Assembly (NCBI RefSeq): GCF_024580145.1
Contig: NZ_JANINI010000011.1
Coordinates: forward strand, 36,350-100,349
DNA: 64,000 nucleotides
From: Methyloversatilis sp. XJ19-49
GTDB taxonomy: Bacteria > Pseudomonadota > Gammaproteobacteria > Burkholderiales > Rhodocyclaceae
Direction of reading: 5' to 3'
The notes under the pieces were generated by a model that searched no databases, had not been told where the DNA came from, and was given only the letters and a program-made list of their open reading frames with translations. The translations under genes were made by a program, and so were the position numbers. Positions 10,115 to 64,000 of the stretch are shown here, piece by piece. Each line of letters opens with the position of its first letter. Position 1 is the stretch's first letter.

Positions 10115-12535
<2,421 letters not shown>

Positions 12536-12564
12536 GCTTACACCAGTTCGATACCGGGGGGGGC

Positions 12565-12587
12565 GACCTTGCGATCGTATCAAGGTC
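12565..12587 (-). promoter_or_regulatory. CueR/MerR-type operator of copA
   Basis: GACCTTG (12565-12571) and CAAGGTC (12581-12587) form a perfect 7-bp dyad with a 9-bp centre. From ACCTT to AAGGT it spans 21 bp, the spacing of copper-responsive CueR boxes. It lies 30 bp upstream of the copA start. The -35 and -10 elements expected on either side are poor matches, as in MerR-activated promoters. Confidence 0.7.
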
Positions 12588-12879
12588 GGGGGTTGCGATA
12601 CACGGGAGCCATCCACCCTTGCCACGGTGAAACGGTGCAGATCCCGTCCGTGACGACCGCCACGCATCCGCTGCACGGGGCAACGTCGTCGTGCGCATCG
12701 AATCCGCACCGACGCGGCCATGCAACTTCGCGCACGGATCAACGCGGAGTATGCGTCCCTGCTTGACGACGTGGTTGCCTACTTCGTCGTCGCCCCGGTG
12801 GACGGCTGGATCGCCAACGTGCGCCCGGCGTACCACGCGTACCACGCCGGGCGCATGCCGGCCGGCGGTCGCAGCGATG
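12588..12879. other. Gap between copA operator and the SpeE-fusion gene, with a GC-rich hairpin
   Basis: No convincing gene. The main structure is a perfect 12-bp inverted repeat, TGCGCCCGGCGT (12820-12831) and ACGCCGGGCGCA (12844-12855), with a 12-nt loop. It lies about 25 bp after the stop of the minus-strand gene ending at 12880, so it may act as its transcription stop although no U-run follows. Short frames here are basic and look like shadows. Confidence 0.5.
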
Positions 12880-15516
12880 TCAGGGCAGAGGAGACGCCGA
12901 CAGCGCGCGCAGCGCGTCCACCGCCTCCGGTCGTGCCGGCTGCAGGCGCGCGAGCGTCTGCAGCAGGGATCTCGCCGCATCGGCATCGGTCCGGGCAAGT
13001 GCAAGCGACATGCGCAGCAAAGGGTCGTAGGCCGGACGGAAGTCCGGGCTGATGGCCAGCACGTCGAGCAATGGCTGACCGACCTGCGCCAGCATCTGCC
13101 GCACATCGGCGCTGGGCTGCACCTGCCGGCCGACGTCGATGAAGCGGTTGCGTGCCCGCCAGTATGCGTCCAGGCGTTGTGCCCAGCCAGCATCGACGGG
13201 GGCGTCCCCAGGGGCGGCCAACAATTCGTCCGGAGTGATCCGTGTCGCCTGCAGGAAGTTCGTCAGCCGGTCTCGGGGCAGCGAATCCGGCTGGTACGTG
13301 ATGCGCGGCGCAAGATAGATCACCACCGGATGGTCATCGGTATTCAGCGGCGCAGCGCCGGAAAAATTGGCCAGTGCAGCCGGGCCGGCCACAAAGCTGC
13401 CAAGCAGCGCCAGCGCGTCCGGTACGCCGAAATCTTTGGGGTTGAAGCCGAACGACCCGCCCTGCAGCCGCTGCCTCAGCGCGTCGACATCGAAGCGCCC
13501 GTCGTCGGCGCGCGCCACCAGCCCGATGACCGGCGTGTCCAGACTGTTGGTGGCGAGCATGGCCCAGCTTTGCGGAAAGACGGTCTGGTAGGCGCGCACG
13601 ATGCTGCGCAGGGTGTCCAGATCGAGCTGATGCAAAGGCAGCCATTGACAGAACACGCCATCCGTCGCCATCCGTGCGCGGATGGCCGCGAAGTGCTCGA
13701 CGGTATAGAGCGAACCGGATCCGCTGCGCGCCGGATGAAAGTTGTCGGCGACGATCACGTCGTAGGCTGCGCCGCCCGCGCGGACAAAGCGCCGCGCATC
13801 GGTCGCCACCACGTGCATGCGCTGTGTGGCGTCTTCGCCCCAGGCCGCTTCCGTAAAGCGCGCGGATGCCTCGATGACTTCGGGCAGCAGTTCGGCCACT
13901 TCGACCTGAACGCTGCTTTCCTGCGCCGCGGTCGAGGCAGTGACGCCAGTACCGAGGCCGAGGAACAGCGCGCGTGCGGGCGCCGGGTGCAGCAACATCG
14001 GCAGCAGGGCCTGCCGACCATCGGCCAACAGCGTCGCCGTGCTGCCTTCCTGTTGCCGGTTGTTGATATGCAGCGTGGCCACGCCACTCGCATCCTCGAC
14101 CACACTCACCGTTGCCAGCGCGCCTTCAGCGTGACTGACCAGGCGGCCACCGGCCGGGATGTCGACGATCGTGAGCGACGGCATCCAGACCATCGCCGCA
14201 CACGTTGCCAACAGCACCGCAATCGCACCGGGCCTGAGCCAGCCGCGCTGCGAGCACAGCGCGACATAGGCTGGTACCAGCAGCAGCAGCGCGAACTTCG
14301 AGCCAAGGCTGGGCACCAGCAGCAGGCCGAACAGCGGTGGCGCAAGGGCCGCCCCGAGGGTATTGACGCCCAGCGCACGTCCGAAAGCGACGCCGCGCGC
14401 GCGCGCCTGTGTCGCCAGATGGCTGAACAGCGCACCCATCGCCACCGTCGGCAGAAGAAAGGCGATGCAGGCCAGCGCCGCCTCGGCGACCAGGGCGCCC
14501 GCCAGCGTGGCACCCAGCATGTCGTTCAACCGGCTTTTGAATGTTGCCGCCTCGCTCAGACCAAGGATGCCGACAAGGCAGGCCCATGCCAGCAACACGA
14601 GCAGGCGATCACGCATCGCATCGGCACGCTCGGCGGGGATGCGACGGCCGGCATAAAGTGCAGCGCCGATTGCCGTGCCGACCAGATAGACCGCCAGCAG
14701 CAGCGCAAAGGTATAGACAGTGTTCTCCGCCACCTGGCTCAGTACGCGCACCACCAGCACTTCATAGGCGATGCCGAGCAGGCCCGTCATTGCGAGCAGC
14801 CACAATGATGCGCGCCCTCCGACTGTCGGCGCTGCGACTGGCTGGCTGGAAGCGACCGGGAACAGTCGCCAGGCAATCACCGCGCACAGCAGATTGAGTG
14901 CCGCACAGACGACTGCGGTGACTGTCAGGCCATGCTCGGGAACCAGCCAGAAGGCGCTGCCCAGCACGCCGAACAATGCACCCAGGGTGTTGCCGGCATA
15001 CAGCGGGGCGATCGACTGGCCGACACGGCCGAGCCCGGCAAGCACGCCTTCCATCGCCGGCAACGTTGCGCCCATGGCCGCGGTGGCCGGAAGCAGCAGC
15101 AGGAAGGTGCCGCCGAACGCCACCGCCCAGTGCCACAGCGGCGTAGGCTGGGAACCGATGAGCTGCAGCAGCCCCTCCGCCACAGGATCGAGCATGAGCG
15201 CCAGCGCCAGGCTCCACAGTCCGATCACCAGTTCGCAGGTGACGTACCACACGCGGGGGCGCGCGCTGCGGTCGATACGTGGTCCGAGCATGAGCGCACC
15301 GATGGCCAGGCCGCCGAAAAAGGCCGCGACGACTGCCAGCACGGCCGCCGCTTCGTGACCGAGCCAGAGTGCGGCCTGCTGCGTCCAGGCGATCTGGTAG
15401 CCCAGTGCCGCAAATCCCGATGCCACCATGAGCAGCAAGGCCACACCACGGATCGCCAGTTGCCTGGTGGGCGGTGGGGAATGAGCGCTCTTGGCTGCGG
15501 AATCGACGGCCGCCAC
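12880..15516 (-). CDS. Membrane protein fused to a spermidine-synthase-like domain
   Basis: An 878-residue fusion. Residues 1 to about 490 form some twelve or more transmembrane helices in an MFS-like arrangement (ALLLMVASGFAALGYQIAWTQ, FFGGLAIGALMLG). The next ~250 residues are a SpeE-like Rossmann methyltransferase/aminopropyltransferase fold (LFLGLGTGVTAS, VEVAELLPEVIEASA, YDVIVADNFHPARSGSGSLYT, GVFCQWLPLHQL). A soluble tail with helical repeats follows. Such 'fused MFS/spermidine synthase' proteins are common in proteobacteria; polyamine synthesis is unproven. GTG 15516 was chosen because it directly follows the stop of the upstream oxygenase gene at 15518; an ATG at 15606 would overlap that gene by 89 bp. 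Coupled translation with the oxygenase is likely. Confidence 0.8.
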   Translation of the reverse strand: MAAVDSAAKSAHSPPPTRQLAIRGVALLLMVASGFAALGYQIAWTQQAALWLGHEAAAVLAVVAAFFGGLAIGALMLGPRIDRSARPRVWYVTCELVIGLWSLALALMLDPVAEGLLQLIGSQPTPLWHWAVAFGGTFLLLLPATAAMGATLPAMEGVLAGLGRVGQSIAPLYAGNTLGALFGVLGSAFWLVPEHGLTVTAVVCAALNLLCAVIAWRLFPVASSQPVAAPTVGGRASLWLLAMTGLLGIAYEVLVVRVLSQVAENTVYTFALLLAVYLVGTAIGAALYAGRRIPAERADAMRDRLLVLLAWACLVGILGLSEAATFKSRLNDMLGATLAGALVAEAALACIAFLLPTVAMGALFSHLATQARARGVAFGRALGVNTLGAALAPPLFGLLLVPSLGSKFALLLLVPAYVALCSQRGWLRPGAIAVLLATCAAMVWMPSLTIVDIPAGGRLVSHAEGALATVSVVEDASGVATLHINNRQQEGSTATLLADGRQALLPMLLHPAPARALFLGLGTGVTASTAAQESSVQVEVAELLPEVIEASARFTEAAWGEDATQRMHVVATDARRFVRAGGAAYDVIVADNFHPARSGSGSLYTVEHFAAIRARMATDGVFCQWLPLHQLDLDTLRSIVRAYQTVFPQSWAMLATNSLDTPVIGLVARADDGRFDVDALRQRLQGGSFGFNPKDFGVPDALALLGSFVAGPAALANFSGAAPLNTDDHPVVIYLAPRITYQPDSLPRDRLTNFLQATRITPDELLAAPGDAPVDAGWAQRLDAYWRARNRFIDVGRQVQPSADVRQMLAQVGQPLLDVLAISPDFRPAYDPLLRMSLALARTDADAARSLLQTLARLQPARPEAVDALRALSASPLP

Positions 15517-48916: not shown

Positions 48917-50133
48917 GCCGGACGCTCCTTCACGCCACACCACAGCGCTGCGAGAAACAGCACGTACATCATGCTGAGGTTCGAGCGCATCAGATAAGAC
49001 TCGAACACGCAGATCGGAATGAACAGCACCGGCAGCGCCTTGCGGATCCGTTGTCGCCCATCCTCCGGCCCGCGCCGCACGAGCGGAAACAGCAGTACCG
49101 CAAGCACCAGCACGCCGGCCGGAATGCCCGCATTGGTCAGCGCATACAGATACTGGTTGTGCGGGTTGTACATCGGCTCCCACTGCGGCGTATGGATCGC
49201 ATTCACCTTGGTGTATTCGACCAGATAGTCGCCGATGCCCACGCCCAGCCAAGGTGACTCGGAAAACATTCGCCAGGCGTTGAGGGCATAGACGATGCGC
49301 AGACCGATTGAGGTATTCGGGCGGTCCTGGTAGTTGACCAGTTCATCGATGCCGGCATCGACACGCTCGCGGAAATAGTCGTTGCCGGCATAGCCCCCCG
49401 CCACGATGCCGAGCGACAGCACGCCGGCGAGCACCACCGCGAGCAGCGGCCGACGCGCGAAACGCTGGAACACCAGCAGCGCCAACAAAACCAGAAAGCC
49501 GAGCAGACCGGCACGGCCACCGGCGATCAGCAGATTGAGCGTGGTGGTCAGCAGCAGCAGGGCGTACAGCGCCCGCGCACCGGAGGTTCGCGCTTCGAAC
49601 AGCAGCCGATGCCCCGCGAGATAGCCGGCCAAGGCCAGCGCCGGCGTATACATCATGCGATCTACGAACGGTGCCGTGTCGTCGGCACCCTTCTCCACCC
49701 TGATGCCGTCCGGCAGATCCGGCCACATGTGCAGTTGCGCCCAGTTATAGAAGGCCAGCGCTTCGCAGCAGGCGATCGATAACAGGAAGGCGGTGACGTA
49801 ACGGCCGAAATGCTCGCGTCGCGCGACGCTGAAATACAGTGCAAACAACAGGAAGAAGCCCTGCCGGCCGGTCATGCGCCGCCCCCAGTCAAGGTCTTCG
49901 GTCCACAGCAGCGACAGCGCAAACACCGCGTAATAGGCGGCAAACAGCCACACCAGCGGTTCGGCCGCCAGCGTGCGCAGCTTTTCGGCATAGCGCCCCT
50001 CAGCCAGCCACAGAATGAGAATGAGTGCACTGAACCAGTAGGCTGGCGCCACGGTCAGCGGTATCGAGAAAAACACGCCGGTCAGCAGCCAGGAGTTGAT
50101 GAACGGAATCCGTCCGCGCAGCGTGGCGATCAT
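48913..50133 (-). CDS. O-antigen ligase family (WaaL-like) membrane protein
   Basis: A 406-residue protein with about 11-12 transmembrane helices and a large periplasmic loop. ATG 50133 (MIATLRGRIPFINSWLL) overlaps the upstream stop. The Wzy/WaaL signature region is present: 'YQDRPNTSIGLRIVYALNAWRMFSESPWLGVGIGDYLVEY', with the conserved Arg, and 'PMYNPHNQYLYALTNAGIPAGVL' with the catalytic His. It would attach a polymer or oligosaccharide to lipid A-core in the periplasm. The polymer's own synthesis genes are not in the window. Confidence 0.9.
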   Translation of the reverse strand: MIATLRGRIPFINSWLLTGVFFSIPLTVAPAYWFSALILILWLAEGRYAEKLRTLAAEPLVWLFAAYYAVFALSLLWTEDLDWGRRMTGRQGFFLLFALYFSVARREHFGRYVTAFLLSIACCEALAFYNWAQLHMWPDLPDGIRVEKGADDTAPFVDRMMYTPALALAGYLAGHRLLFEARTSGARALYALLLLTTTLNLLIAGGRAGLLGFLVLLALLVFQRFARRPLLAVVLAGVLSLGIVAGGYAGNDYFRERVDAGIDELVNYQDRPNTSIGLRIVYALNAWRMFSESPWLGVGIGDYLVEYTKVNAIHTPQWEPMYNPHNQYLYALTNAGIPAGVLVLAVLLFPLVRRGPEDGRQRIRKALPVLFIPICVFESYLMRSNLSMMYVLFLAALWCGVKERPA

Positions 50134-51167
50134 GCGAAGCGCACCCCGCATTGTTCGAAGGCGTGCTTCATGTCGATTCTTTCCTGCTCGCTCTTGAAAA
50201 GTGCGTCGCCCCAGCCGAAGGCGACTACCTGAACAGCCGGTGGATAGATCTGGCGCGCGAACAGAAGCGCGCTCGAGCGCACGCCCACGACGGCGTCGTA
50301 GCGGGTACGCGCCATATGCGTTTCCAGCGCGCACTCTGGCTCGATCAGTTGGTAATCAGGGTGACGCAGTTCGTGACCGGGGTCCTTCGGATGGGCTTTG
50401 TAGTCGATCTGCGCAACGCCCTGCCCGGCCAGCCAGTCGCGGATGCGCTGCGTCAGCGGCGCCAGTGCGTGCGCCGGCAGCAGACCGGCACCGACCAGCG
50501 GCTGGCCGATCACCAGCGCGCGACGCGGCCCGGCACCGTCTTCGAAGACCGGCTGCGCGCGGCTGACCAGCGGCGGCAGTACGCACACCTTGTGGACCGG
50601 GTAGGCGTGCGGCAGACCGGGCAGCACGTAGATGCGGTCGCAGAAATCCGCGTCCGAACCGATGCGGTCGCCGTCGAAACAGAGGTAGCGCAGTTCGGGC
50701 GCGATCAGGCGGCGCAGCAGGCGGGCACGCTGCATCAGTCGCTTCGGCAGCGACAGCGGGTAGCGCCGGATGCTGATCAGGCCGTCGGGCAGGATGCGAG
50801 CATGCATTTCACGCGCACCGGCCCTCTGCGGCAGTGCATGCAGGAAGTAATTGATCGCTTCGGTATCGAACACCGCGCTGTGCAGCAGCAAGGTGTCGCA
50901 TTGCCCGACCAGCCCGGCCACCAGATCGATGTTCGCGCGCAGCCGGCGGTGCCGCCCTGACCATCCGGGCAGCGGCTCCCAGCGCGGCCAGGGCATGTAG
51001 GTGCAGGCATCCCACTCGGACGGATCGACAACTGCCTTCATGCCCGGCTTGTACCAGACCAGCACCTGCTTCGCATCACGCTCTATGTCGCTGGCAATGC
51101 GCCGGGCAGCCAGGTACTGCAGGGGGGATGCAACGAAATAGACGGCAACCGTTCGGTGATCTGACAT
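50130..51167 (-). CDS. Putative polysialyltransferase/GT52-like glycosyltransferase
   Basis: A 345-residue protein, first gene of the glycan operon. It opens with 'VAVYFVASPLQYLAARRIAS', like the 'SPLQ' start of alpha-2,8-polysialyltransferase and GT52-type enzymes. Further on, 'VAQIDYKAHPKDPGHEL' has the K-x-HP motif and 'TRYDAVVGVRSSALLFARQIYPP' the SS motif that such transferases use for sugar nucleotide binding. The family call is by motif only, and overall similarity cannot be judged without a search. Stop overlaps the ligase ATG. Confidence 0.6.
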   Translation of the reverse strand: MSDHRTVAVYFVASPLQYLAARRIASDIERDAKQVLVWYKPGMKAVVDPSEWDACTYMPWPRWEPLPGWSGRHRRLRANIDLVAGLVGQCDTLLLHSAVFDTEAINYFLHALPQRAGAREMHARILPDGLISIRRYPLSLPKRLMQRARLLRRLIAPELRYLCFDGDRIGSDADFCDRIYVLPGLPHAYPVHKVCVLPPLVSRAQPVFEDGAGPRRALVIGQPLVGAGLLPAHALAPLTQRIRDWLAGQGVAQIDYKAHPKDPGHELRHPDYQLIEPECALETHMARTRYDAVVGVRSSALLFARQIYPPAVQVVAFGWGDALFKSEQERIDMKHAFEQCGVRFA

Positions 51168-53831: not shown

Positions 53832-54740
53832 TCAGTCGCTTTCGGCCCGCATCGCGAGCGCCGCTGCAGCGGCACGCGTTTCGACCCCGAGCTTTTCGTA
53901 GACGTGTTCGAGGTGCTTGTTCACGGTGCGCGGGCTCATGCCGAGGATGTCGCCGATGTCGCGGTTGGTCTTGCCCTTGGCCAGCCACGACAGCACCTCC
54001 GCTTCGCGCGGCGTCAGTTGGGCGCCAGCGATGCGGGTGCTCGATTCGCCACGGCGGCGCACATCGAGCAGCAGCATGTGCTCGCCCAGCCCGACCGCGC
54101 CCAGGCTGCGCGCGTAAAGCGAATTTTCGCCGCTTTCGCCGATCAGCTTTGCGTCGGTGCCCGGCTCGTCCGCCATGCGCGCAAGCTGGGCCAGCGACTC
54201 GCCGGGCGGCGTATCGGACGCGTCGATACCGAACTGCGCGAGGCTGTCCGCGGCCCGCGGTGAGCGCCATGCGATGCGACCGAGCGCGTCGATCACCAGC
54301 ACGCCCAGCCCGGCCACATCCACCGCCTGGCGCGCGATGCGAACGGCTCGCGCATTGCGCACGTGAGCCGACAGTCGTGCCAGCACCTCCTCGACGCGCA
54401 GCGGCTTGACCACGTAGTCGGTGCCGCCGGCGGTGAAACCTTCGACCACTTCCGCCGTGCCCGACAGGCCGGTCATGAAGATGACCGGCACATGCGACAG
54501 CCCGGGCTCTTCGCGGATCAGGCGGCAGGTTTCGAAGCCGGACAGGCCCGGCATGACCGCATCCAGAAGGATGGCGTCGGGCACGACCAGTTCGAGCCGG
54601 GCCAGCGCCGACTCGCCGTCATTGGCGATCAGCACCAGATAACCGGCCTGGGAGAGCGCCTCGCACAGGAAGCCGAGCGAATCCGGCGCGTCGTCCACCA
54701 CCAGCACGACCGGCTGATGAAATGGGGAATCATTGGACAT
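53832..54740 (-). CDS. LuxR-type response regulator (partner of the NCS1-fused kinase)
   Basis: A 302-residue regulator. The receiver domain opens VVLVVDDAPDSLGF with acceptor Asp60 (AILLDAVMPG), Thr/Lys switch residues in 'MTGLSG' and 'VVKPL'. A middle segment of about 95 residues looks PAS-like ('GLGVLVIDALGRIAWRSPRAADSL'). The C-terminal LuxR/FixJ helix-turn-helix is 'LTPREAEVLSWLAKGKTNRDIGDILGMSPRTVNKHLEHVYEKLGVETRAAA' (quoted in overlapping pieces: residues about 240-290). ATG 54740 overlaps the kinase stop (54730) by 11 bp, so the two are translated together. It should activate or repress the urt-fmdA operon. Confidence 0.9.
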   Translation of the reverse strand: MSNDSPFHQPVVLVVDDAPDSLGFLCEALSQAGYLVLIANDGESALARLELVVPDAILLDAVMPGLSGFETCRLIREEPGLSHVPVIFMTGLSGTAEVVEGFTAGGTDYVVKPLRVEEVLARLSAHVRNARAVRIARQAVDVAGLGVLVIDALGRIAWRSPRAADSLAQFGIDASDTPPGESLAQLARMADEPGTDAKLIGESGENSLYARSLGAVGLGEHMLLLDVRRRGESSTRIAGAQLTPREAEVLSWLAKGKTNRDIGDILGMSPRTVNKHLEHVYEKLGVETRAAAAALAMRAESD

Positions 54741-57700
54741 GGGCATCACGTTGCAGCAATTCGGTGAAACGGATCAGGTCAAAACCATCGATTAGCTTTC
54801 GCAGCCGGCCGCAATCTTCGCGCGCCTCGTCCGACCGTTCCGCGATGGCATCGAGCAGTGTCGCGATGCCGTTCACGTGACCGAGACGCGACAGCCTGAG
54901 CAGCGCCGAGCGTTCCTCTTCGTCCAGCGCCCGCAAGGGTACATCGCCTGCGTCGTTGCGGGATGCAACATTCAGGGATTCCGGTTCATCGACGTGCCAG
55001 GTCAGGTCGAGCGCGTCGCGCAATTGTTCCAGCAGCTCCGACTCCATGACCGGCTTGGGTACGAAGCCGGCGCAGCCGGCGTTGCGCAGCAGTTCGCTGC
55101 GGTTGTCGAATACATTGGCTGACACCATGATGACCGGAATCGGCGCCCCGGCCATGTGTTGCAGGTGGCGGGCGGTTTCCCAGCCATCCATGCCGTCCAT
55201 GTTGATGTCGAGCAGCACCACGTCGGGGCGCTGCAGCGCGACCCTTTCGAGCCCTTCGCGTCCGCTCGCCGCCTCGTCGATGCCGAAACCGAGCGGCAGC
55301 AACATGGCCGCCAGCATGTGGCGCTGCGTGGCGTCGTCGTCGATCAGCAGCACGCGCCGGCGCTCGCCGTCGTAACCGATGACCTGGCGCGTCGGTCTGA
55401 CCTTGGTCGGCACCGACAGGTATTCCGGCAGGTAGAGGCGCAGCCGGAACGTACTGCCACGACCCGGTTCGCTCTCCAGCGTCAGTTCGCCGCCCATCAG
55501 CGAAGTGAGCATGCGGCTGATGGTCAGGCCGAGACCGGCCCCGGGTTCGGCCTGACCGCGGCCCGAACTGCTGCGCTCGAACGGCACGAAGATGCGCGCA
55601 TGATCTTCCTGTGCGATGCCGGGCCCGGTATCGGCCACTTCGAATCGCGCCACTTCCATGCGGTAGTCGATGCGCAGCACCACTTCGCCGCGCGACGTGA
55701 ATTTCACCGCATTGGCCAGCAGGTTGATCAGCACCTGGCGTAGCCGCTTCACGTCCACCCGCACGTAGTCGGGCATGCGGCCGGTGGTTTCGATGCGAAA
55801 GCGCAGACCCTTGCGCACTGCCTGAGGCTCGAACATCTTTGCCAGATCATCGAGCAGTTCGCGCATCGGCATCGGTGACGGATCGAGCCGCAGCTTGCCG
55901 GCTTCGATGCGGGCGAGGTCGAGCAGGCCGTCGATCAGCCCCAGCAGGTGTTCGCCGCTGCGCAGGATGGTGCCGAGCGCGCGCCGTTGGGTATCGATCT
56001 GGGTCAGCGCACCCGTCGCTGGCGCGCCTTTGGCAGCGCCAGCCTGCGCAAGCGATCCCTGTCCAAGCTCGCGCAGCAGGATCTGCGCATAGCCGAGAAT
56101 GCTGTTCAGCGGCGTGCGCAGTTCGTGACTGATGCCGGTCACATAGCGCGTTTTCGCGAGGTTGGCTGATTCGGCGGAATCCTTCGCCTTCTGCAAGGCG
56201 AGGTCCGTCTTGCGGTGGGCGTCCACCTCTCGCATCAGCAGCTGGTTCTGCCGGTTCGACTCGTCCTGCGCCAGGCGCCGGCTTTCGGAGCCGAGCACGA
56301 TCCACCATGCGCACACCGCGCACAGCAGCACCAGCAGCGCGAAAGTCTTGAGCAAGCTCAGCAGCAGGGATTCGCGCGCCGACGCGTACAGATCCGCAAC
56401 CACCGCCTCCTGGTAATACACGACGCCAAAGATGACCGCCAGCAGCGCAGTCAACGACAGGAACACGACCAGGAAGTGGCCGATCCGGAAATTGACCCGG
56501 TGCGCCAGCCGCATCGGCAGGATGGCGTCGAGCACGGCACGCAGCTGGTCGGCAGCGCTCGCGTCGGTCTTGCAGCGGTCGTGGCAGCGCGATTCCAGCG
56601 TGCAGCACAGTGAGCAGATCGGCTGCCCGTAGGCCGGACAGTAGGCCATGTCTTCCGATTCGAAGCTGTTCTCGCAGACGTGACAGGTCACGGACTGACC
56701 CGGACGCCACTGCATCGTGCTGCGCCGTGCGATGTAGTAGCGGCCGCGCGTCGCCCAGGCGATCAGCGGCGCAATGACGAAGGCGGTGGCGAGCGAAATG
56801 ATCGGCGAGAACGCCTGCGCCGCATCGCCCATCCAGCCGGTGTAGGCCAGCACCGACACGACGGTGGCGATCGCCATCGACCCCAGCCCGACCGGATTGA
56901 TTTCATACAGATGGGCGCGCTTGAATTCGATGTGCGACGGCGACAGGCCGAGCGGCTTGTTCACCACGAGGTCGGCCACCAGTGCGCCGACCCACGCGAT
57001 GGCGAGGTTGGCGTACAGACCCAGCACGTGCTCCAGCGCCTCGAACACGCCTAGCAGCATCAGCAGCAGGGCGATCACCACATTGAATACCAGCCATACG
57101 ACGCGGCCCGGGTGGCTATGCGTCAGCCGGGCGAAGAAATTCGACCAGGCGAGCGATCCGGCGTAGGCGTTGGTCACATTGATTTTGAGTTGCGACACGA
57201 TGACGAAGACGACGGTCACCGCCAGCACGACCGCCGGAGAATCGAACACATAGCCGTAGCCGGCCAGATACATCTGCGTCGGTTCGAGCGCACGGTCGGC
57301 CGGCACCATGGCCTGCAGCGCGAGAAAGGCGAGAAAGGCGCCGCCCAGCATCTTGACCATGCCGGGCACGATCCAGCCCGGGCCTGCAATCAGCACGGCC
57401 GCCCACCAGCGGTAGCGGTTCTCGCGGCTCTTTTCCGGCAGGAAGCGCAGGTAATCCACCTGTTCGCCGATCTGCACCACCAGCGAAATGGCCACGGTGG
57501 AGGCGGCACCGAACATCAGCCAGTCGAAGTCGCTGTTGCCGGACGTACGGCCACTCATGCTTGTGAAATCGCGAAACATTTCCGGCGCCTGCAGCCACAC
57601 GGCGATGTAAGGCAGCACCAGCAGCACGATCCACACCGGCTGCGTCCACAGCTGGATGCGGCTGATCAGCGTCACGCCGTGGATCACCAGCGGAATCACC

Positions 57701-58179
57701 ACCACCGCGCACAGCAGATAGGCCCACGCGAGCGGCATGCCGAAATACAGCTCGAACGCCAGCGCCATGATGGCCGCCTCGATGGCGAAGAAGATGAAGG
57801 TGAAGCTGGCGTAGACGAGCGAGGTGATCGTCGAGCCCAGATAGCCGAAGCCGGCGCCGCGCGTCAGCAGATCCATATCGACGCCGTACTTGGCGGCGCA
57901 GTAGCTGATGGGCAGGCCGGTCAGGAAGGTGATCAGGCCGACGAACAGGATGGCCCACAGTGCATTCGTGAAGCCGTAGTTCAGCGCAATTGCGCCGCCG
58001 ATGGCTTCCAGCGCGAGAAAGGACACTGCACCGAAGGCGGTGTTGGCGACCCGCCATTCCGACCATTTGCGGAAGCTGCGCGGCGTGTAGCGCAGCGCAT
58101 AGTCCTCGAGCGTTTCGGTAGCGACCCAGGTGTTGTAGTCGCGACGGATCTTGAAAATCTGCTGGGTGGCTTCTGACAT
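54730..58179 (-). CDS. NCS1 permease-like / hybrid histidine kinase fusion sensor
   Basis: A 1149-residue fusion. Residues 1-480 are an NCS1 (purine-cytosine permease-like) transporter with about twelve helices ('FLTGLPISYCAAKYGVDMDLLTRGAGFGYLGS', 'INVTNAYAGSLAWSNFFARLTHSH'). Residues 499-536 are a Cys cluster (C499, C502, C514, C522, C525, C526, C532, C536). Two more helices follow (about 568-590 and 608-630). The kinase has the H-box TGISHELRTPLNS with His685, an N-box near 820 and a G-box 'AGLGLTISRM'. A receiver has Asp991 (LLDINMDGMDG). A tail of about 80 residues lacks a clear Hpt. ATG 58179 was chosen because it opens the NCS1-like region; an upstream frame to 58434 has no homology. 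Divergent from urtA. Confidence 0.88.
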   Translation of the reverse strand: MSEATQQIFKIRRDYNTWVATETLEDYALRYTPRSFRKWSEWRVANTAFGAVSFLALEAIGGAIALNYGFTNALWAILFVGLITFLTGLPISYCAAKYGVDMDLLTRGAGFGYLGSTITSLVYASFTFIFFAIEAAIMALAFELYFGMPLAWAYLLCAVVVIPLVIHGVTLISRIQLWTQPVWIVLLVLPYIAVWLQAPEMFRDFTSMSGRTSGNSDFDWLMFGAASTVAISLVVQIGEQVDYLRFLPEKSRENRYRWWAAVLIAGPGWIVPGMVKMLGGAFLAFLALQAMVPADRALEPTQMYLAGYGYVFDSPAVVLAVTVVFVIVSQLKINVTNAYAGSLAWSNFFARLTHSHPGRVVWLVFNVVIALLLMLLGVFEALEHVLGLYANLAIAWVGALVADLVVNKPLGLSPSHIEFKRAHLYEINPVGLGSMAIATVVSVLAYTGWMGDAAQAFSPIISLATAFVIAPLIAWATRGRYYIARRSTMQWRPGQSVTCHVCENSFESEDMAYCPAYGQPICSLCCTLESRCHDRCKTDASAADQLRAVLDAILPMRLAHRVNFRIGHFLVVFLSLTALLAVIFGVVYYQEAVVADLYASARESLLLSLLKTFALLVLLCAVCAWWIVLGSESRRLAQDESNRQNQLLMREVDAHRKTDLALQKAKDSAESANLAKTRYVTGISHELRTPLNSILGYAQILLRELGQGSLAQAGAAKGAPATGALTQIDTQRRALGTILRSGEHLLGLIDGLLDLARIEAGKLRLDPSPMPMRELLDDLAKMFEPQAVRKGLRFRIETTGRMPDYVRVDVKRLRQVLINLLANAVKFTSRGEVVLRIDYRMEVARFEVADTGPGIAQEDHARIFVPFERSSSGRGQAEPGAGLGLTISRMLTSLMGGELTLESEPGRGSTFRLRLYLPEYLSVPTKVRPTRQVIGYDGERRRVLLIDDDATQRHMLAAMLLPLGFGIDEAASGREGLERVALQRPDVVLLDINMDGMDGWETARHLQHMAGAPIPVIMVSANVFDNRSELLRNAGCAGFVPKPVMESELLEQLRDALDLTWHVDEPESLNVASRNDAGDVPLRALDEEERSALLRLSRLGHVNGIATLLDAIAERSDEAREDCGRLRKLIDGFDLIRFTELLQRDAHVQ

Positions 58180-58394: not shown

Positions 58395-58412
58395 ATACGT
58401 CGATTGACGTAT
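58395..58412. promoter_or_regulatory. 18-bp dyad, candidate LuxR-type operator
   Basis: ATACGTC-GATT-GACGTAT: perfect 7-bp arms with a 4-bp centre, immediately downstream of the 30-bp dyad. Short dyads like this are typical LuxR/FixJ-type regulator sites. Confidence 0.55.
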
Positions 58413-58460: not shown

Positions 58461-58474
58461 TGCGGTGCACCGCA
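58461..58474. promoter_or_regulatory. 14-bp palindrome upstream of urtA
   Basis: TGCGGTGCACCGCA is a perfect palindrome without spacer, 72 bp upstream of the urtA start. It resembles parts of NtrC sites (GGTGCA) but does not match the consensus spacing. Confidence 0.4.
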
Positions 58475-58545
58475 CAAAAGTGAATCAACGGCCAATACCG
58501 GATCGCCTGAAGCTCCCCAACCCGTCCCCGCTCAGGAGAAAAGAT

Positions 58546-59820
58546 ATGGCTGACAAGAAAGACCCGATCCAGACGCCGCTTACCGACGAACAGCGCCGCA
58601 AGGTGCTGATGGGCATGGCCGCGATGCCTGCGATGATGATGCCCGGCATGGCGCTGGCCCAGGCTGCGCAGTTCCCGACGGCCAAGGTGAACACCAGCAA
58701 GCTGGCGGTGACGGATACCGAGGTCGTCGTGGGTCAGCTGCATTCGGCGACCGGCACCATGGCCATTTCCGAAACCGGTTCGATCCAGGCCGAACAGCTG
58801 GCGATCGACCAGATCAATGCGATGGGCGGCGTGCTCGGCCGCAAGATCCGCGTGATCAAGGAAGACGGCGCATCCGACTGGCCGACCTTTGCCGAGAAAT
58901 CGAAGAAGCTGCTGGTGCAGGACAAGGTCGCATGCGTGTTCGGCTGCTGGACGTCGGCTTCGCGCAAGGCGGTGCTGCCGATCTTCGAAAAAGAGAACGG
59001 CATGCTGTACTACCCGACGTTCTACGAAGGACTGGAACAGTCGAAGAACGTGATCTACACGGGTCAGGAAGCCACGCAGCAGATCCTGTACGGCCTCGAC
59101 TGGGCAGCGAAGGAGAAGAAGGCCAAGACCTTCTTCCTGGTCGGTTCGGACTACATCTGGCCGCGCACCTCGATGAAGATCGCGCGCAAGCACATCGAAT
59201 CCGTTGCCAAGCTGGGCAAGGTCGCCGGCGAAGAGTACTACCCGCTCGGCCACACCAATTTCAACTCGCTGATCAACAAGATCAAGCTGGCCAAGCCGGA
59301 CTGCATCTTCGCTGCCGTGGTCGGCGGCTCGAACGTTGCCTTCTACAAGCAGCTGAAGGCCGCCGGCATCACGGCGGACAAGCAGTTCCTGCTGACCATT
59401 TCGGTGACCGAAGACGAAGTGCTGGGCATCGGCGGTGAAAACATCGCCGGCTTCTACTCGTCGATGAAGTACTTCCAGTCGCTCGACAATGCCAACAACA
59501 AGGCTTTCGTCGAGGCATTCAAGAAGGCCTACGGTCCGAAGTCGGTGATCGGCGACGTGACCCAGGCCGGCTATCTCGGCCCGTGGATCTGGAAGGCGAC
59601 GGTCGAGAAGGCGGGCAGTTTCGATGTCGACAAGATCGCCGCCGCCTCCGGTGGCATCGAGTTGAAGACCGCGCCCGAAGGCTACGTGAAGGTGCATGAA
59701 AACCATCACCTGTGGAGCAAGGCGCGCATCGGCCAGGCGCAACTCGACGGCCAGTTCAAGGTGGTCGCCGAGTCGCCCGAACTGATCGAACCGAACCCCT
59801 TCCCCAAGGGTTACCAGTAA
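58546..59820 (+). CDS. urtA: Urea/short-chain amide ABC transporter substrate-binding protein
   Basis: A 424-residue periplasmic binding protein of the UrtA/FmdD type. ATG 58546 follows AGGAG at 58534-58538. A signal-type N-terminus (VLMGMAAMPAMMMPGMALA) follows a polar stretch of about 20 residues. The mature fold shows UrtA hallmarks: 'VGQLHSATGTMAISETGSIQAEQLAIDQINAMGGVLGR', 'VACVFGCWTSASRKAVLPIFE', 'GLLYYPTFYEG'-like (NGMLYYPTFYEGLEQS) and 'GSDYIWPRTSMKIARKHIE'. The family binds urea or small amides. With formamidase in the operon, an amide such as formamide or acetamide is likely, urea also possible. A 14-bp hairpin follows the gene. Confidence 0.93.
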   Translation: MADKKDPIQTPLTDEQRRKVLMGMAAMPAMMMPGMALAQAAQFPTAKVNTSKLAVTDTEVVVGQLHSATGTMAISETGSIQAEQLAIDQINAMGGVLGRKIRVIKEDGASDWPTFAEKSKKLLVQDKVACVFGCWTSASRKAVLPIFEKENGMLYYPTFYEGLEQSKNVIYTGQEATQQILYGLDWAAKEKKAKTFFLVGSDYIWPRTSMKIARKHIESVAKLGKVAGEEYYPLGHTNFNSLINKIKLAKPDCIFAAVVGGSNVAFYKQLKAAGITADKQFLLTISVTEDEVLGIGGENIAGFYSSMKYFQSLDNANNKAFVEAFKKAYGPKSVIGDVTQAGYLGPWIWKATVEKAGSFDVDKIAAASGGIELKTAPEGYVKVHENHHLWSKARIGQAQLDGQFKVVAESPELIEPNPFPKGYQ

Positions 59821-59941: not shown

Positions 59942-60856
59942 ATGTCACTGACCGACATCATGAACATCACCCTGATGCAGGGTTTCGCAGGCCTCAGCCT
60001 GTTTTCGGTGCTGCTGCTGATGGGCCTCGGGCTGGCCATCATCTTCGGCCAGATGGGCGTGATCAACATGGCGCATGGCGAATTCATGACCATCGGCGCC
60101 TACACGATCTACATGTTTTCCTCGCTGACCGAGACCTTCCTGCCGGGTTTCGCGTCGATGTACTTCCCGTTTGCCATCGTGGCGGCATTCTGCATCGCCT
60201 TCGTCTTCGGCTGGTTCATCGAGTGGGCGCTGATACGACACCTGTACAAGCGTCCGCTCGACACGCTGCTCGCCACCTGGGGCCTGTCGCTGGCCATGCA
60301 GCAGACCTTCCGTTCGACCTTCGGCGCACGTGAAGTGAGTCCGACGCTGCCCGACTGGCTGCTCGGCTCCTGGGCACCGGCAGAAGGCCTCGACATCCCG
60401 ATCAATGGTCTGTTCGTGCTCGCGCTGACCGCACTGGTGACCGGCGGCGTACTGCTCGCCCTGTACCGCTCGCGCTGGGGCTTGCGTGTGCGTGCCACGG
60501 TTGCCAACCGCCCGATGGCCAACGCCACCGGCATCAACACCAGCCGCACCGACCGTCTGACATTCGCCATCGGTTGCGGCATCGCCGGCGTCGCCGGAGC
60601 GGCCTTCACGACGATCGGCTCGACCGGTCCGACCAGCGGTTCGCTGTACATCGTCGATGCCTTCCTGGTGGTGACCTTCGGCGGCGCAGGCAGCCTGCTC
60701 GGCACCGTGGCTTCGGCTTTCGGAATCGCCCAGACGCAATCGATCGCCGAGTTCTTCATGACCGGCTCGATGGCCAAGGTGCTCACGCTGATGATGATCG
60801 TGACCATCCTGATGCTGCGTCCGCAAGGCCTCTTTGCTTCGAAGATCCGCCGCTGA
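59942..60856 (+). CDS. urtB: Amide/urea ABC transporter permease UrtB
   Basis: A 304-residue inner-membrane permease of the branched-chain (LivH) type: 'GLSLFSVLLLMGLGLAIIFGQMGVINMAHGEFMTIGAY' with the hallmark NMAHGEF, 'DTLLATWGLSLAMQQTFRSTFGAREVSP', 'NRPMANATGINTSRTDRLTFAIGCGIAGVAGA', 'GSLYIVDAFLVVTFGGAGSLLGT'. It lacks the long periplasmic N-domain of some UrtB proteins, as in the Methylophilus FmdE type. It follows urtA by 121 bp with a hairpin between. Confidence 0.92.
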   Translation: MSLTDIMNITLMQGFAGLSLFSVLLLMGLGLAIIFGQMGVINMAHGEFMTIGAYTIYMFSSLTETFLPGFASMYFPFAIVAAFCIAFVFGWFIEWALIRHLYKRPLDTLLATWGLSLAMQQTFRSTFGAREVSPTLPDWLLGSWAPAEGLDIPINGLFVLALTALVTGGVLLALYRSRWGLRVRATVANRPMANATGINTSRTDRLTFAIGCGIAGVAGAAFTTIGSTGPTSGSLYIVDAFLVVTFGGAGSLLGTVASAFGIAQTQSIAEFFMTGSMAKVLTLMMIVTILMLRPQGLFASKIRR

Positions 60857-60905
60857 GTCCGGCTGCGCTCCGACCCCCGAATACCCACGATCCAAGGAGA
60901 ACCCA

Positions 60906-62123
60906 ATGGACTCAATCAAGAGCTGGCTGGCACGTAGCGGAATGGGAAGCGTGCTGATACTGGCGCTGATCATCATCGTCGTGTTCCCGCTGACGATGGA
61001 CCTGTTCCGCCTGAACCTGGTCGGCAAATACCTCACCTACGCCTTCGTCGCCGTCGGCCTGGTCATGCTGTGGGGCTACGGCGGCGTGCTCAGCCTCGGC
61101 CAGGGCGTGTTCTTCGGCCTCGGCGGCTACATGATGGCGATGTTCATGAAGCTGGAGGCATCCGACCCGGAAACCACCAAGATCCAGAGCACGCCGGGCA
61201 TTCCGGACTTCATGGACTGGAACCAGATCACCGAGCTGCCGCTGTGGTGGGAGCCGTTCCGACACCTGCCGCTGGCGTTGCTGGCGGTATTGCTGATCCC
61301 CACGCTGCTGGCCTTCATCATCAGTTTCGCGATGTTCCGGCGCCGGGTCGGCGGCGTGTATTTCGCCATCATCACGCAGGCGGTCTGCCTGATCCTGACC
61401 GTGCTCATCGTCGGCCAGCAGGGCTACACCGGCGGTGTCAATGGCATCACCGACCTGAAGACCATCCTCGGCTGGGACACGCGGACCGACGAAGCCAAGT
61501 ACATCCTGTACTTCGTCAATGCCGGACTGCTGATCGCCTCCATCCTGCTGTGCCGCTGGATCCAGCTTAGCAAGCTCGGCACGCTGCTGCTGGCGATGCG
61601 CGACAAGGAAGACCGCGTGCGCTTCTCCGGCTACGACGTGTCGATGTTCAAGGTGTTCGCCTTCTGCCTCGCCGCGATGCTGTCGGCAATCGGCGGCGCG
61701 ATGTTCGTGCTTCAGGTCGGCTTCATGTCGCCGTCGCTGGTCGGCATCGTGCCGTCGATCGAAATGGTCATCTTCGCGGCGGTCGGCGGCCGCATGTCGC
61801 TGGTCGGTGCGGTGTATGGCGCGCTGCTGGTCAATTTCGGCAAGACCTACTTTTCCGAAAGCTTTCCCGACCTGTGGCTGTTCCTGATGGCTGCGCTGTT
61901 CATCGGCGTCGTGCTCGCCTTCCCGAACGGACTGGCCGGCCTGTACGAAAGCCACGTCAAGCCGCGCCTGGGCAAGCGCAAGGACAAGCCCGCTGCCGGC
62001 ACCGACAGCACACCGTCGTCCGACGCCCCGCCCGCCACCCCGCTGCACAGCGGCGCTCCGCACGGCGGCAAGCCGCTGGCCCGCACCGCACTGCCTGACG
62101 GCGTGCAGGGCACATCCGCCTGA
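60906..62123 (+). CDS. urtC: Amide/urea ABC transporter permease UrtC
   Basis: A 405-residue LivM-type permease; ATG 60906 follows AAGGAGA at 60894-60900. About nine or ten helices, with 'LGQGVFFGLGGYMMAMFMKLEAS' and 'DKEDRVRFSGYDVSMFKVFAFCLAAMLSAIGGAMFVLQVGF' as family marks. The last ~45 residues (after 'YESHVKPRLGKRKD') form a Pro/Ala/Gly/His-rich tail not needed for transport, likely cytoplasmic. It pairs with UrtB to form the channel. Confidence 0.92.
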   Translation: MDSIKSWLARSGMGSVLILALIIIVVFPLTMDLFRLNLVGKYLTYAFVAVGLVMLWGYGGVLSLGQGVFFGLGGYMMAMFMKLEASDPETTKIQSTPGIPDFMDWNQITELPLWWEPFRHLPLALLAVLLIPTLLAFIISFAMFRRRVGGVYFAIITQAVCLILTVLIVGQQGYTGGVNGITDLKTILGWDTRTDEAKYILYFVNAGLLIASILLCRWIQLSKLGTLLLAMRDKEDRVRFSGYDVSMFKVFAFCLAAMLSAIGGAMFVLQVGFMSPSLVGIVPSIEMVIFAAVGGRMSLVGAVYGALLVNFGKTYFSESFPDLWLFLMAALFIGVVLAFPNGLAGLYESHVKPRLGKRKDKPAAGTDSTPSSDAPPATPLHSGAPHGGKPLARTALPDGVQGTSA

Positions 62124-62140: not shown

Positions 62141-62884
62141 ATGAGCAATACCGACTTCGTACTTGCGGTGGAAGACCTCACCGTGTCCTTCGACGGTTTC
62201 AAGGCCATCGACGCACTCACCCTGTACGTGGATCGCGGCGAGCTGCGCGTGATCATCGGCCCGAACGGTGCCGGCAAGACCACTCTGCTCGACCTGATCT
62301 GCGGCAAGACGCGCGCCAGCGGCGGCAGCATCAAGTTCAAGAATATGGAAATGACCAAGATGGCCGAGCACAAGATCGTGCGCTCCGGCATCGGCCGCAA
62401 GTTCCAGACGCCGTCGATCTACGAAAACCTCTCCGTCTTCAAGAACCTCGAGGTGTCGTTCCCGCGCGGCCGCAGCGTGTTCGGCGCACTGGGCTTCCGG
62501 TGCACCGACGAGGTCAAGACACGTGTGCAGTCGGTCGCCGACGAAATCAGTCTCGGCGACTCGCTCGACGTCGAAGCAGGCCTGCTCAGCCATGGCCAGA
62601 AGCAGTGGCTGGAGATCGGCATGTTGCTGATGCAGGAACCCGAACTGCTGATGCTCGACGAGCCGATCGCCGGCATGAGCGTGCGCGAGCGCGAACTGAC
62701 CGGCGAACTGCTGCAGCGCATCTGCAAGGGGCGCTCGGTGATCGTGATCGAGCACGACATGGATTTCGTCAAGCGCATCGCCCACAAGGTCACCGTCATG
62801 CACCAGGGAAAAATCCTCGCCGAAGGATCGATGGACAAGGTGCAGAACGATCCCAAGGTCATCGACGTTTATCTGGGTCACTGA
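62141..62884 (+). CDS. urtD: Amide/urea ABC transporter ATP-binding protein UrtD
   Basis: A 247-residue LivG-type ATPase. Walker A is GPNGAGKTT at residues 40-48; the signature motif is the UrtD variant 'LLSHGQKQWLEIGMLL' (His in place of Gly in LSGGQ), Walker B is 'LLMLDEPIAGM', and the H-loop is 'VIEHDMDFVKRI'. It works with UrtE on the inside of the UrtBC channel. It follows urtC by 17 bp. Confidence 0.94.
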   Translation: MSNTDFVLAVEDLTVSFDGFKAIDALTLYVDRGELRVIIGPNGAGKTTLLDLICGKTRASGGSIKFKNMEMTKMAEHKIVRSGIGRKFQTPSIYENLSVFKNLEVSFPRGRSVFGALGFRCTDEVKTRVQSVADEISLGDSLDVEAGLLSHGQKQWLEIGMLLMQEPELLMLDEPIAGMSVRERELTGELLQRICKGRSVIVIEHDMDFVKRIAHKVTVMHQGKILAEGSMDKVQNDPKVIDVYLGH

Positions 62885-62954: not shown

Positions 62955-63644
62955 ATGCTCAACGTCAAGGATCTCCACGTTGCCTACGGTCAGAGCGAGG
63001 CCCTGCACGGCATTTCGTTCGAAGCGAACAGGAACGAGACGATCGCCATCATGGGCCGCAACGGCATGGGCAAGACCACGCTGTTCAAGTCACTGATCGG
63101 CATCCTGCCGATCAAGAGCGGCCACATCGAAGTCGCCGGCAAGGAAGTGTCGAAGGACGAGAGCTACAAGCGCGTCGCCAAGGGCATCGCCTACGTGCCG
63201 CAGGGCCGCATGATTTTCCCGACACTGACGGTCGAGGAGAACATCCACACCGGCCTCGAGAATGCCAAGGTCAAGAAGGTGCCGGAAGAGATCTACGCCC
63301 TGTTCCCGGTGCTGTGGGAAATGCGCAGCCGCAAGGGCGGCAACCTGTCCGGCGGCCAGCAGCAGCAGCTGGCCATCGCGCGCGCACTGGTCACCGACCC
63401 CAAGGTGTTGCTGCTCGACGAACCGACCGAAGGCATCCAGCCCTCGATCATCAAGGACATCGCGAAAGCGCTGAACGAGATTCGCAAGCTGCGCGAAATC
63501 ACCATCGTCGTGTCCGAGCAGGTCCTCAGTTTCGCCATGGACGTGGCCGACCGCCTGTTCGTCATCGAAGGCGGACGCCTTGTCCATGAAAGCACGCGCG
63601 CCGACACGGATACCGCGCGCATCAAGCAGTTCCTGTCCGTCTGA
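62955..63644 (+). CDS. urtE: Amide/urea ABC transporter ATP-binding protein UrtE
   Basis: A 229-residue LivF-type ATPase; ATG 62955 follows GAGAGG at 62941-62946. Walker A is GRNGMGKTT near residue 33, the signature is 'GGNLSGGQQQQLAIARAL', Walker B 'KVLLLDEPTEGIQPS', and the switch region 'IVVSEQVLSFAM' has Glu-Gln in place of the usual His. The D-loop 'EGIQPSIIKDI' is typical of UrtE. It follows urtD by 70 bp. Confidence 0.94.
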   Translation: MLNVKDLHVAYGQSEALHGISFEANRNETIAIMGRNGMGKTTLFKSLIGILPIKSGHIEVAGKEVSKDESYKRVAKGIAYVPQGRMIFPTLTVEENIHTGLENAKVKKVPEEIYALFPVLWEMRSRKGGNLSGGQQQQLAIARALVTDPKVLLLDEPTEGIQPSIIKDIAKALNEIRKLREITIVVSEQVLSFAMDVADRLFVIEGGRLVHESTRADTDTARIKQFLSV

Positions 63645-63682: not shown

Positions 63683-64000
63683 ATGGCCGAGACCCTGATC
63701 AAGGTTGACCTGAAGCAGTCGCCGTACGAGAACGACATGGTGCACAACCGCTGGCACCCGGACATTCCCATCGTCTGCTGGGTCAAGCCCGGTGACGATT
63801 TCAAGATCGAAACCTACGACTGGACCGGCGGCTTCATCCAGAACAACGACAGCGCGGACGACGTGCGCGACATCGACCTGACGACGGTGCACTTCCTGTC
63901 CGGCCCGATCGGCGTCGAAGGCTGCGAGCCGGGCGACCTGCTGGTGGTCGACATCCTGGACATCGGTGCCAAGGAAGACAGCCTGTGGGGCTTCAACGGC
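63683..64000 (+). CDS. fmdA: Formamidase FmdA (acetamidase/formamidase family), 3' end outside window
   Basis: The first 106 residues of a formamidase-type enzyme are visible; ATG 63683 has AAGGAG at 63671-63676. 'TLIKVDLKQSPYENDMVHNRWHPDIPIVCWVKPGDDFKIETYDWTGG' (residues 4-50) and 'DVRDIDLTTVHFLSGPIGVEGCEPGDLLVVDILDIGAKEDSLWGFNG' (residues 60-106) closely resemble FmdA of Methylophilus. The enzyme hydrolyses formamide, and more slowly other short amides, to ammonia and the acid. Its place 38 bp after urtE ties the transporter to amide use. The remainder is cut off by the window edge. Confidence 0.94.
   Translation, partial: MAETLIKVDLKQSPYENDMVHNRWHPDIPIVCWVKPGDDFKIETYDWTGGFIQNNDSADDVRDIDLTTVHFLSGPIGVEGCEPGDLLVVDILDIGAKEDSLWGFNG

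Follow-up and report, generated by a model that had tools for sequence, protein, structure and literature searches.

The locus described here lies in a window of 64,000 nucleotides, the whole stretch of DNA analysed, from Methyloversatilis sp. XJ19-49 (contig NZ_JANINI010000011.1, positions 36,350 to 100,349 of the forward strand). Its central element is a gene on the minus strand, with an ATG start at window positions 58179-58177, encoding a fusion sensor in which a permease-like domain is joined to a hybrid histidine kinase. The chain runs, in order, from a predicted 12-helix domain of the nucleobase-cation symporter (NCS1) fold through an eight-Cys putative zinc finger and a transmembrane (TM) hairpin to HisKA, HATPase and receiver (REC) domains. 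A response regulator gene overlaps the kinase stop, and an operon for urea and amide uptake, with a formamidase gene behind it, diverges from the kinase start. The features are as follows, in window coordinates.

54730-58179, minus: fusion sensor (NCS1-fold permease, eight-Cys finger, TM hairpin and hybrid histidine kinase), 1149 amino acids (aa)
56725-58179, minus: predicted NCS1-fold domain, residues 1-485 (AlphaFold model, Foldseek matches to Mhp1 and CodB, hhalign)
56560-56694, minus: eight-Cys domain C-x2-C-x11-C-x7-C-x2-CC-x5-C-x3-C, residues 496-540, a putative treble-clef zinc finger
56284-56490, minus: predicted TM hairpin, residues about 564-632, running on into the signalling helix (the model has helices at 564-594 and 599-659)
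55897-56154, minus: HisKA with phospho-acceptor His685 (Pfam; invariant in two alignments)
55429-55755, minus: HATPase_c (Pfam)
55021-55353, minus: receiver domain with Asp991 (Pfam and two alignments)
53832-54749, minus: response regulator, REC plus GerE/LuxR helix-turn-helix, overlapping the kinase stop (Pfam)
58395-58412, no strand assigned: predicted operator ATACGTC-N4-GACGTAT between kinase and urtA, here with spacer GATT
58465-59820, plus: urtA, urea/amide ATP-binding cassette (ABC) binding protein (TIGR03407, 527 bits, cut-off 492.75)
59942-60856, plus: urtB (TIGR03409, over cut-off)
60834-62123, plus: urtC (TIGR03408, over cut-off)
62141-62884, plus: urtD (TIGR03411, over cut-off)
62955-63644, plus: urtE (TIGR03410, over cut-off)
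about 63683-64000, plus: fmdA formamidase, start only (NF045496, 772 bits, cut-off 500)

Architecture of the fusion sensor

Pfam places HisKA at residues 676-761, HATPase_c at 809-917 and Response_reg at 943-1053 of the window protein, and lists no PAS or periplasmic domain in it. Relatives were collected in two sets, one of 60 fusion proteins (that of the window plus 59 relatives) and one of 80 loci from GTDB genomes, the best 80 of at least 584; the two sets may share species. His685 is invariant in two alignments (60/60 and 74/74 sequences, the window protein being in both), and Asp991 is kept in every sequence without a gap there (58/60 and 71/74). With HisKA, HATPase_c and a receiver that carry the expected His and Asp, the C-terminal half is a hybrid histidine kinase. 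A histidine phosphotransfer (HPt) domain in the C-terminal tail was considered and rejected, as the candidate His1101 is a His in only 20/74 and 15/60 sequences. A sequence-only reading of this DNA had described a single 1149-residue chain with an NCS1 domain, a Cys cluster, a kinase with His685 and a receiver with Asp991, set between an overlapping LuxR regulator gene and a divergent amide/urea uptake operon. The open reading frame, the Pfam domains and their conservation agree with that description, as do the regulator frame that covers the kinase stop and the urtABCDE genes with fmdA behind them.

The NCS1 assignment is borne out by other means than Pfam. No Pfam match was obtained for residues 1-505 of the window protein even at E<=10, PF02133 (NCS1) matched 0/31 family members at that threshold, and neither an SSF (SLC5) nor an Amt domain was found by Pfam in the permease-like region. 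Since Pfam and PDB sequence searches with the permease domain gave no permease match, fold and profile-profile comparison were used. With hhalign, the family aligned to CodB and six PF02133-selected proteins with a probability of 98.1 (E 8e-14). An AlphaFold model made from 64 sequences had a predicted local distance difference test (pLDDT) score of 87 and a predicted template modelling (pTM) score of 0.87. Its five best PDB matches in Foldseek were Mhp1 and CodB (Mhp1 2jln, E 2.7e-10; CodB 7qoa, E 3.9e-10), and SLC5 and other LeuT-fold structures scored below them. Because of these profile and structure matches, and despite the absent PF02133 match, the N-terminal part is, by model and profile, an NCS1-fold domain of a divergent branch.

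By alignment, the pocket of this domain differs from that of CodB. CodB Gln105, Trp108 and Phe204 align to Thr127, Phe130 and position 235, which is mostly Thr, Ala or Val; Phe130, aligned to Trp108 of CodB TM3, is present in 127/139 members. The aromatic sandwich of NCS1 transporters (a Trp in TM3, a Phe or Trp in TM6) is not seen in the alignment, the TM6 part of which is gapped; the TM6 aromatic is described as conserved throughout NCS1 in the excerpted CodB paper (PMC9379551). At the TM6 break, Q236, E239 and Q240 are invariant in 139/139 members and G238 is present in 137. At the Na2 site an ungapped reading puts I333 and N334 at CodB Thr278 and Thr279, with an invariant K332 beside them, and the TM8 alignment is gapped.

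The Cys cluster proved to be a family trait, with the eight-Cys pattern kept in 138/139 members, one further, truncated member being excluded from the count. In the sole exception, L153, a short deletion has removed the last two cysteines. The predicted domain consists of short strands and one short helix. Prok-RING_1 gave weak matches in 9/44 members (best E 0.01) and zf_Tbcl_Rhp7 a match in 1/44 (E 0.00043), and Foldseek with the Cys domain returned nothing at E<=0.001. Two long predicted helices follow it, the second of which continues into the kinase. The finger is found on standalone permeases too, and is therefore part of the permease unit and not merely a kinase linker.

Gene linkage and a predicted operator

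The family loci considered here number 140, five of which are too short in flank and were left out of the linkage count. At least one of urtA, fmdA and ureC is present in 126 of the remaining 135. A stricter count of 117/135 results when nine loci linked only by a distant second-type urtA are dropped (L121, L160, L165, L169, L177, L179, L181, L185 and L200; the second-type UrtA lies more than 6 kb away, and its query was taken from L160 itself). None of the three genes occurs in 20 arbitrarily placed 20-kb control regions of kinase-bearing genomes. The urtA gene is directly divergent from the kinase in 85/140 loci, and a response regulator gene on the same strand lies within 400 bp of the kinase stop in 126/140. 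Eighteen further loci (L237-L249, L270, L271 and L273-L275) were kept outside the 140; with L245 and L249 too short, 10/16 are linked. Among the recurrent neighbour clusters that were annotated, which were not all of them, no nucleobase or allantoin genes were seen.

On a FastTree phylogeny the fmd-linked loci make up the bulk, and the ureC-linked loci form one main clade (20 of its 36 rows) plus two small groups. L108 and L115 branch first, and both have fmdA and no urtA in the locus. The nine unlinked loci include seven titled, for example, Azonexus, Zoogloea, Cognatazoarcus, Denitromonas and Rhodocyclaceae, and two from cyanobacteria. L164, L170, L195, L197, L201 and L205, in which kinase and regulator stand without urtA, fmdA or ureC, branch beside the urease-linked loci.

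Fifty-seven strong places were found in 52/398 sampled genomes of the phylum, the own genome included, and all 57 are kinase fusions. The kinase is also matched by 530 plasmid records, 342 of them from Klebsiella; the records listed label it as ATP-binding protein, ArcB, response regulator or hybrid sensor. A Burkholderia vietnamiensis plasmid has the layout of the window, with urt genes and formamidase, and a Mitsuaria plasmid has a comparable layout with urease and urtA further off. On the one Klebsiella record inspected, the K. pneumoniae conjugative plasmid NZ_CP097412.1 (L314), the kinase is accompanied by urtABCDE and a formamidase gene; a fourth plasmid record bore no annotation. Two records named Acinetobacter phage MD-2021a (CAKLQH020000001.1 and CAKLQF020000001.1, 329 and 379 kb), which are perhaps bacterial DNA, contain a stretch annotated arcB that has 51% identity to the sensor module.

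A looser form of the predicted operator, TACG-N8-CGTA, lies within 450 bp upstream of the kinase in 74/137 loci, namely in 61/74 fmd-linked, 11/28 urt-only, 1/24 urease-linked and 1/11 other loci, and has no copy in 400 kb of control DNA. The 2.59 Mb of loci contain 42 further copies, and 36 of these precede a target gene by at most 350 bp (16 fmdA, 15 urtA, 3 amidase, 1 urtC and 1 ureC), often one that is not adjacent to the kinase. No palindrome of their own stood out in the 24 upstream regions of urease-linked loci. A sigma-54 promoter upstream of the kinase was discarded, the one strict consensus looked for being present in 0/137 upstream regions.

The strict form, TACGTC-N4-GACGTA, was searched for in the own genome and 20 relatives. 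It is present in 15/15 kinase-carrying and 0/6 kinase-free genomes, one of the six being only 68% complete; the backwards pattern, used as control, has four copies, in three of the 21. The strict site lies just upstream of the kinase in 14/15 genomes, and in the remaining one (G015) near a downstream urtA. Seven genomes, the own included, have one further strict site, and in 7/7 it is 62-63 bp before amiE, the product of which in the own genome is an aliphatic amidase well over the NCBIfam cut-off. No such site lies upstream of 11 urtA genes from kinase-free genomes, one of which had only 131 bp upstream; for 4/11 of these genomes the kinase was judged absent from the result of searching with L123 at E<=1e-20. 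We regard this comparative evidence as strong, and the predicted regulon and its operator as very probably correct.

Beyond the window, fmdA runs on (L054 16033-17262) and is followed by a gene for a zinc-ribbon, FmdB-like protein. Downstream of the latter, at L054 17671-18837, lies a 388-aa open reading frame with a signal-peptide-like start and no Pfam match, which might encode an FmdC-like porin. On the other side of the sensor, the frame at window 50130-51167 (minus strand) is borderline to polysialyltransferase PF07388 (23.1 bits, cut-off 23.3).

The permease unit in its relatives and in known systems

Standalone forms of the permease also occur. One genus supplies three genomes in which the first gene of an operon, ahead of fmdA, an fmdB-like gene and an aliphatic amidase gene, encodes a standalone NCS1-Cys permease; this operon faces the fusion kinase and its regulator with the operator in between, and no urt genes were seen in the 20-kb stretch of those three genomes. 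In these loci (L237, permease at 11767-13446; L270; L271) the permease stands before fmdA-fmdB-amidase in place of urtABCDE. A second standalone Cys-motif protein in one of the three genomes adjoins a PF01425 amidase, and a more distant relative without the Cys motif adjoins a CN-hydrolase and an AmiR-type regulator. PF02133 does recognise one standalone relative, L123 (36.4 bits, cut-off 23.5). All closely inspected free-standing kin, a set that excludes the remoter L250-L256, stand with amide hydrolases.

The same unit is joined to other outputs. In L239, L108, L115, L174 and L206 it is carried by kinases without a Pfam-detected receiver. In L241 (6849-10520, minus strand) the NCS1-Cys-hairpin unit is joined to PAS-GGDEF-EAL, a cyclic di-GMP enzyme with a permease-fold input; the same genome has a second long NCS1 frame, L274, with 1272 aa open. 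Because outputs as unlike as a hybrid kinase, a simple kinase and PAS-GGDEF-EAL share it, the NCS1-Cys unit is best explained as a portable input module.

The likeness to CbrA that had been suggested from the sequence holds at the level of design, a LeuT-fold symporter domain being joined to a kinase in both. The SLC5/STAC kinases (CbrA, CrbS/MxtR, RpuS), so far as the excerpted sources describe them, likewise connect a LeuT-fold symporter to a (hybrid) histidine kinase, with a small conserved domain as the linker, and RpuS and an S. fredii CrbS homologue pair with LuxR-family regulators (PMC9100948). The family described here, in contrast, has an NCS1 and not an SLC5 domain, a Cys finger and TM hairpin in place of STAC and PAS, and linkage to amide and urea genes, where those kinases are described as serving histidine, acetate or pyruvate use. 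Neither STAC nor PAS was found between transporter and kinase in Pfam at E<=0.001, although the existence of a Pfam STAC model was not checked. In Ks-Amt5, as proposed here, a transporter fold has become a ligand receptor on a histidine kinase, which shows that a fused transporter can be a sensor; it differs in its trimeric Amt fold, in its ligand, ammonium, and in lacking a PAS, HAMP or STAC linker according to the excerpted paper (PMC5764959). By analogy, the fusion sensor would work like CbrA or Ks-Amt5, yet it belongs to neither family, since the tested features fail. GrtK was rejected as a relative, its TM domain being different as far as the excerpt describes it (PMC12918730).

CodB and Mhp1 have the fold and remote homology in common with the sensor domain, and MetT, an NCS1 member for the acyclic substrate metformin (PMC13390362, in excerpt), indicates that NCS1 can take such a substrate. 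These transporters, unlike the sensor, have no kinase; the pocket aromatics of the sensor and perhaps its Na2 ligands differ from theirs, and PF02133 misses the sensor family. In AmiC/AmiR control of amiE and in the Methylophilus fmd genes, amidase or formamidase genes are induced by amides, as proposed here. AmiC/AmiR consists of a cytoplasmic binding protein and an antiterminator, whereas the present system is a membrane two-component system. No ANTAR protein is encoded in a 16-kb stretch around the own amiE, and the genome's two ANTAR matches lie on other contigs.

In the literature, both formamide and urea reportedly induce the fmdCABDEF genes of Methylophilus (PMC10781810, in excerpt), an induction that the proposed sensor would fit. 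Pseudomonas veronii has an amiE-fmdAB-urtABCDE cluster without amiC or amiR, for which the excerpted account names no sensor (PMC13209695). A 2026 genome paper lists a hybrid kinase and LuxR regulator beside a urt operon, which its excerpted text does not analyse and which may belong to the present family (PMC13296017). Among the papers listed by searches of the open-licence PubMed Central literature we recognised no published NCS1-kinase or amide/urea sensor kinase.

Proposed sensing of short-chain amides and urea

Architecture, fold, conservation, linkage and operator distribution are directly supported. Building on these, and with a probability of about 0.74, we propose that the two-component system senses short-chain amides or urea through a repurposed NCS1-type permease. 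Formamide, acetamide or urea would bind (or cycle) in the permease pocket and change its conformation, and the Cys finger and TM hairpin would relay this change to HisKA. Phosphate would then presumably pass to the neighbouring LuxR-type regulator, by a route that must be inferred as the tail has no conserved HPt His. The regulator, as the likely operator-binding protein, would bind TACGTC-N4-GACGTA and, if we infer the direction of the signal correctly, activate urtABCDE-fmdAB together with the amiE gene elsewhere in the genome. The same site precedes a separate fmdA, amidase gene or urtA in relatives. Within this proposal the permease fold is probably the receptor itself.

A part of the system other than the permease fold could read the signal. 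The regulon may be controlled as described while the NCS1 part transports, or serves only as an anchor, and the signal is read elsewhere, which we consider unlikely. In the excerpted study, loss of the SLC5 domain leaves CbrA able to autophosphorylate and to activate its target (PMC7096432), and the standalone relatives of the present unit resemble amide permeases. CbrA, however, has a histidine-binding PAS domain, although its deletion hardly altered target expression (PMC7096432), and Pfam finds no PAS here; moreover, the occurrence of the NCS1-Cys unit on very different outputs is what an input module would be expected to show. The Cys domain might instead sense zinc, redox or nitrogen status, with that state and not the substrate regulating the amide and urea genes. 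Eight cysteines kept in nearly every member, and on standalone proteins too, would suit such a sensor, but its presence on standalone permeases points to a role of the finger in structure or coupling, and the aligned NCS1 pocket residues are equally invariant, which a pure anchor would not need; we find this reading improbable. Slightly less probable still is a system in which the actual receptor is UrtA, or flux through UrtABCDE, and the fusion kinase merely listens to it. Such an arrangement agrees with the many loci in which urtA is directly divergent from the kinase, but not with the three genomes of one genus in which a standalone NCS1-Cys permease heads the fmdA operon in a urt-free stretch, nor with the first-branching L108 and L115.

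As for the ligand, the sequence-only reading had allowed a nucleobase, allantoin, urea or an amide. The last two are favoured by the neighbours and by the operator before urtA, fmdA and amiE; nucleobases and allantoin find no support, as no genes for them were seen in the annotated recurrent clusters and the TM6 aromatic is absent by alignment. A nucleobase, hydantoin or allantoin ligand, as for typical NCS1 transporters, would suit a fold closest to Mhp1 and CodB, but we hold it to be very improbable. The operator targets are amide and urea genes, by alignment CodB Trp108 is replaced by Phe130 and Phe204 by Thr, Ala or Val at position 235, beside the invariant Q236, E239 and Q240, and the metformin transporter provides an NCS1 precedent for an acyclic substrate (PMC13390362, in excerpt).

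Several observations weigh against sensing of amides and urea through the permease. The sequence-only reading had proposed counting how often the architecture stands beside urtA or fmdA, and had held that homologues away from amide or nucleobase genes would undo the proposed role. The count bears out the association, with 126/135 and 10/16 loci linked, yet such homologues were partly found, since 9/135 loci and 6/16 of the further loci (L239, L241, L247, L248, L274 and L275) have no urtA, fmdA or ureC; L241 adjoins RuBisCO and CbbQ genes. Six of the 42 further operator copies have no target gene behind them, and in urease-linked loci the operator precedes the kinase in only 1/24, standing chiefly before a separate urtA. 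The control with urtA genes of kinase-free genomes is weak because their products are only 37-42% identical to the window UrtA. The residue mapping onto CodB is gapped at TM6 and TM8. Finally, the transporter domain of CbrA is not essential for signalling in the excerpted study (PMC7096432), and the permease part therefore need not be the sensor.

The sensing proposal can be widened to the whole family, at what we judge to be even odds. The NCS1-Cys unit would be an undescribed family of short-chain amide and urea permeases captured as a portable receptor module. Taken jointly with this, and at the same odds, the unit with its TM hairpin would drive hybrid kinases, simple kinases and GGDEF-EAL enzymes, and the eight-Cys zinc finger would serve as a STAC-like coupler. 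If this is true, the NCS1-Cys receptor would supply the missing amide/urea sensor to which the reported fmd and urt induction is due.

Characterised transporter-kinase fusions are few, and one of them, CbrA, can signal without its transporter half. In the widespread family described here, a permease fold is linked with a single, chemically simple class of ligands; a predicted operator, a predicted regulon and a standalone paralogue are at hand, and these together make the question of whether a transporter fold can act as receptor directly testable. The family also offers a candidate sensor for induction by formamide and urea, and a likely role for a regulator present in 530 plasmid records, 342 of them from Klebsiella.

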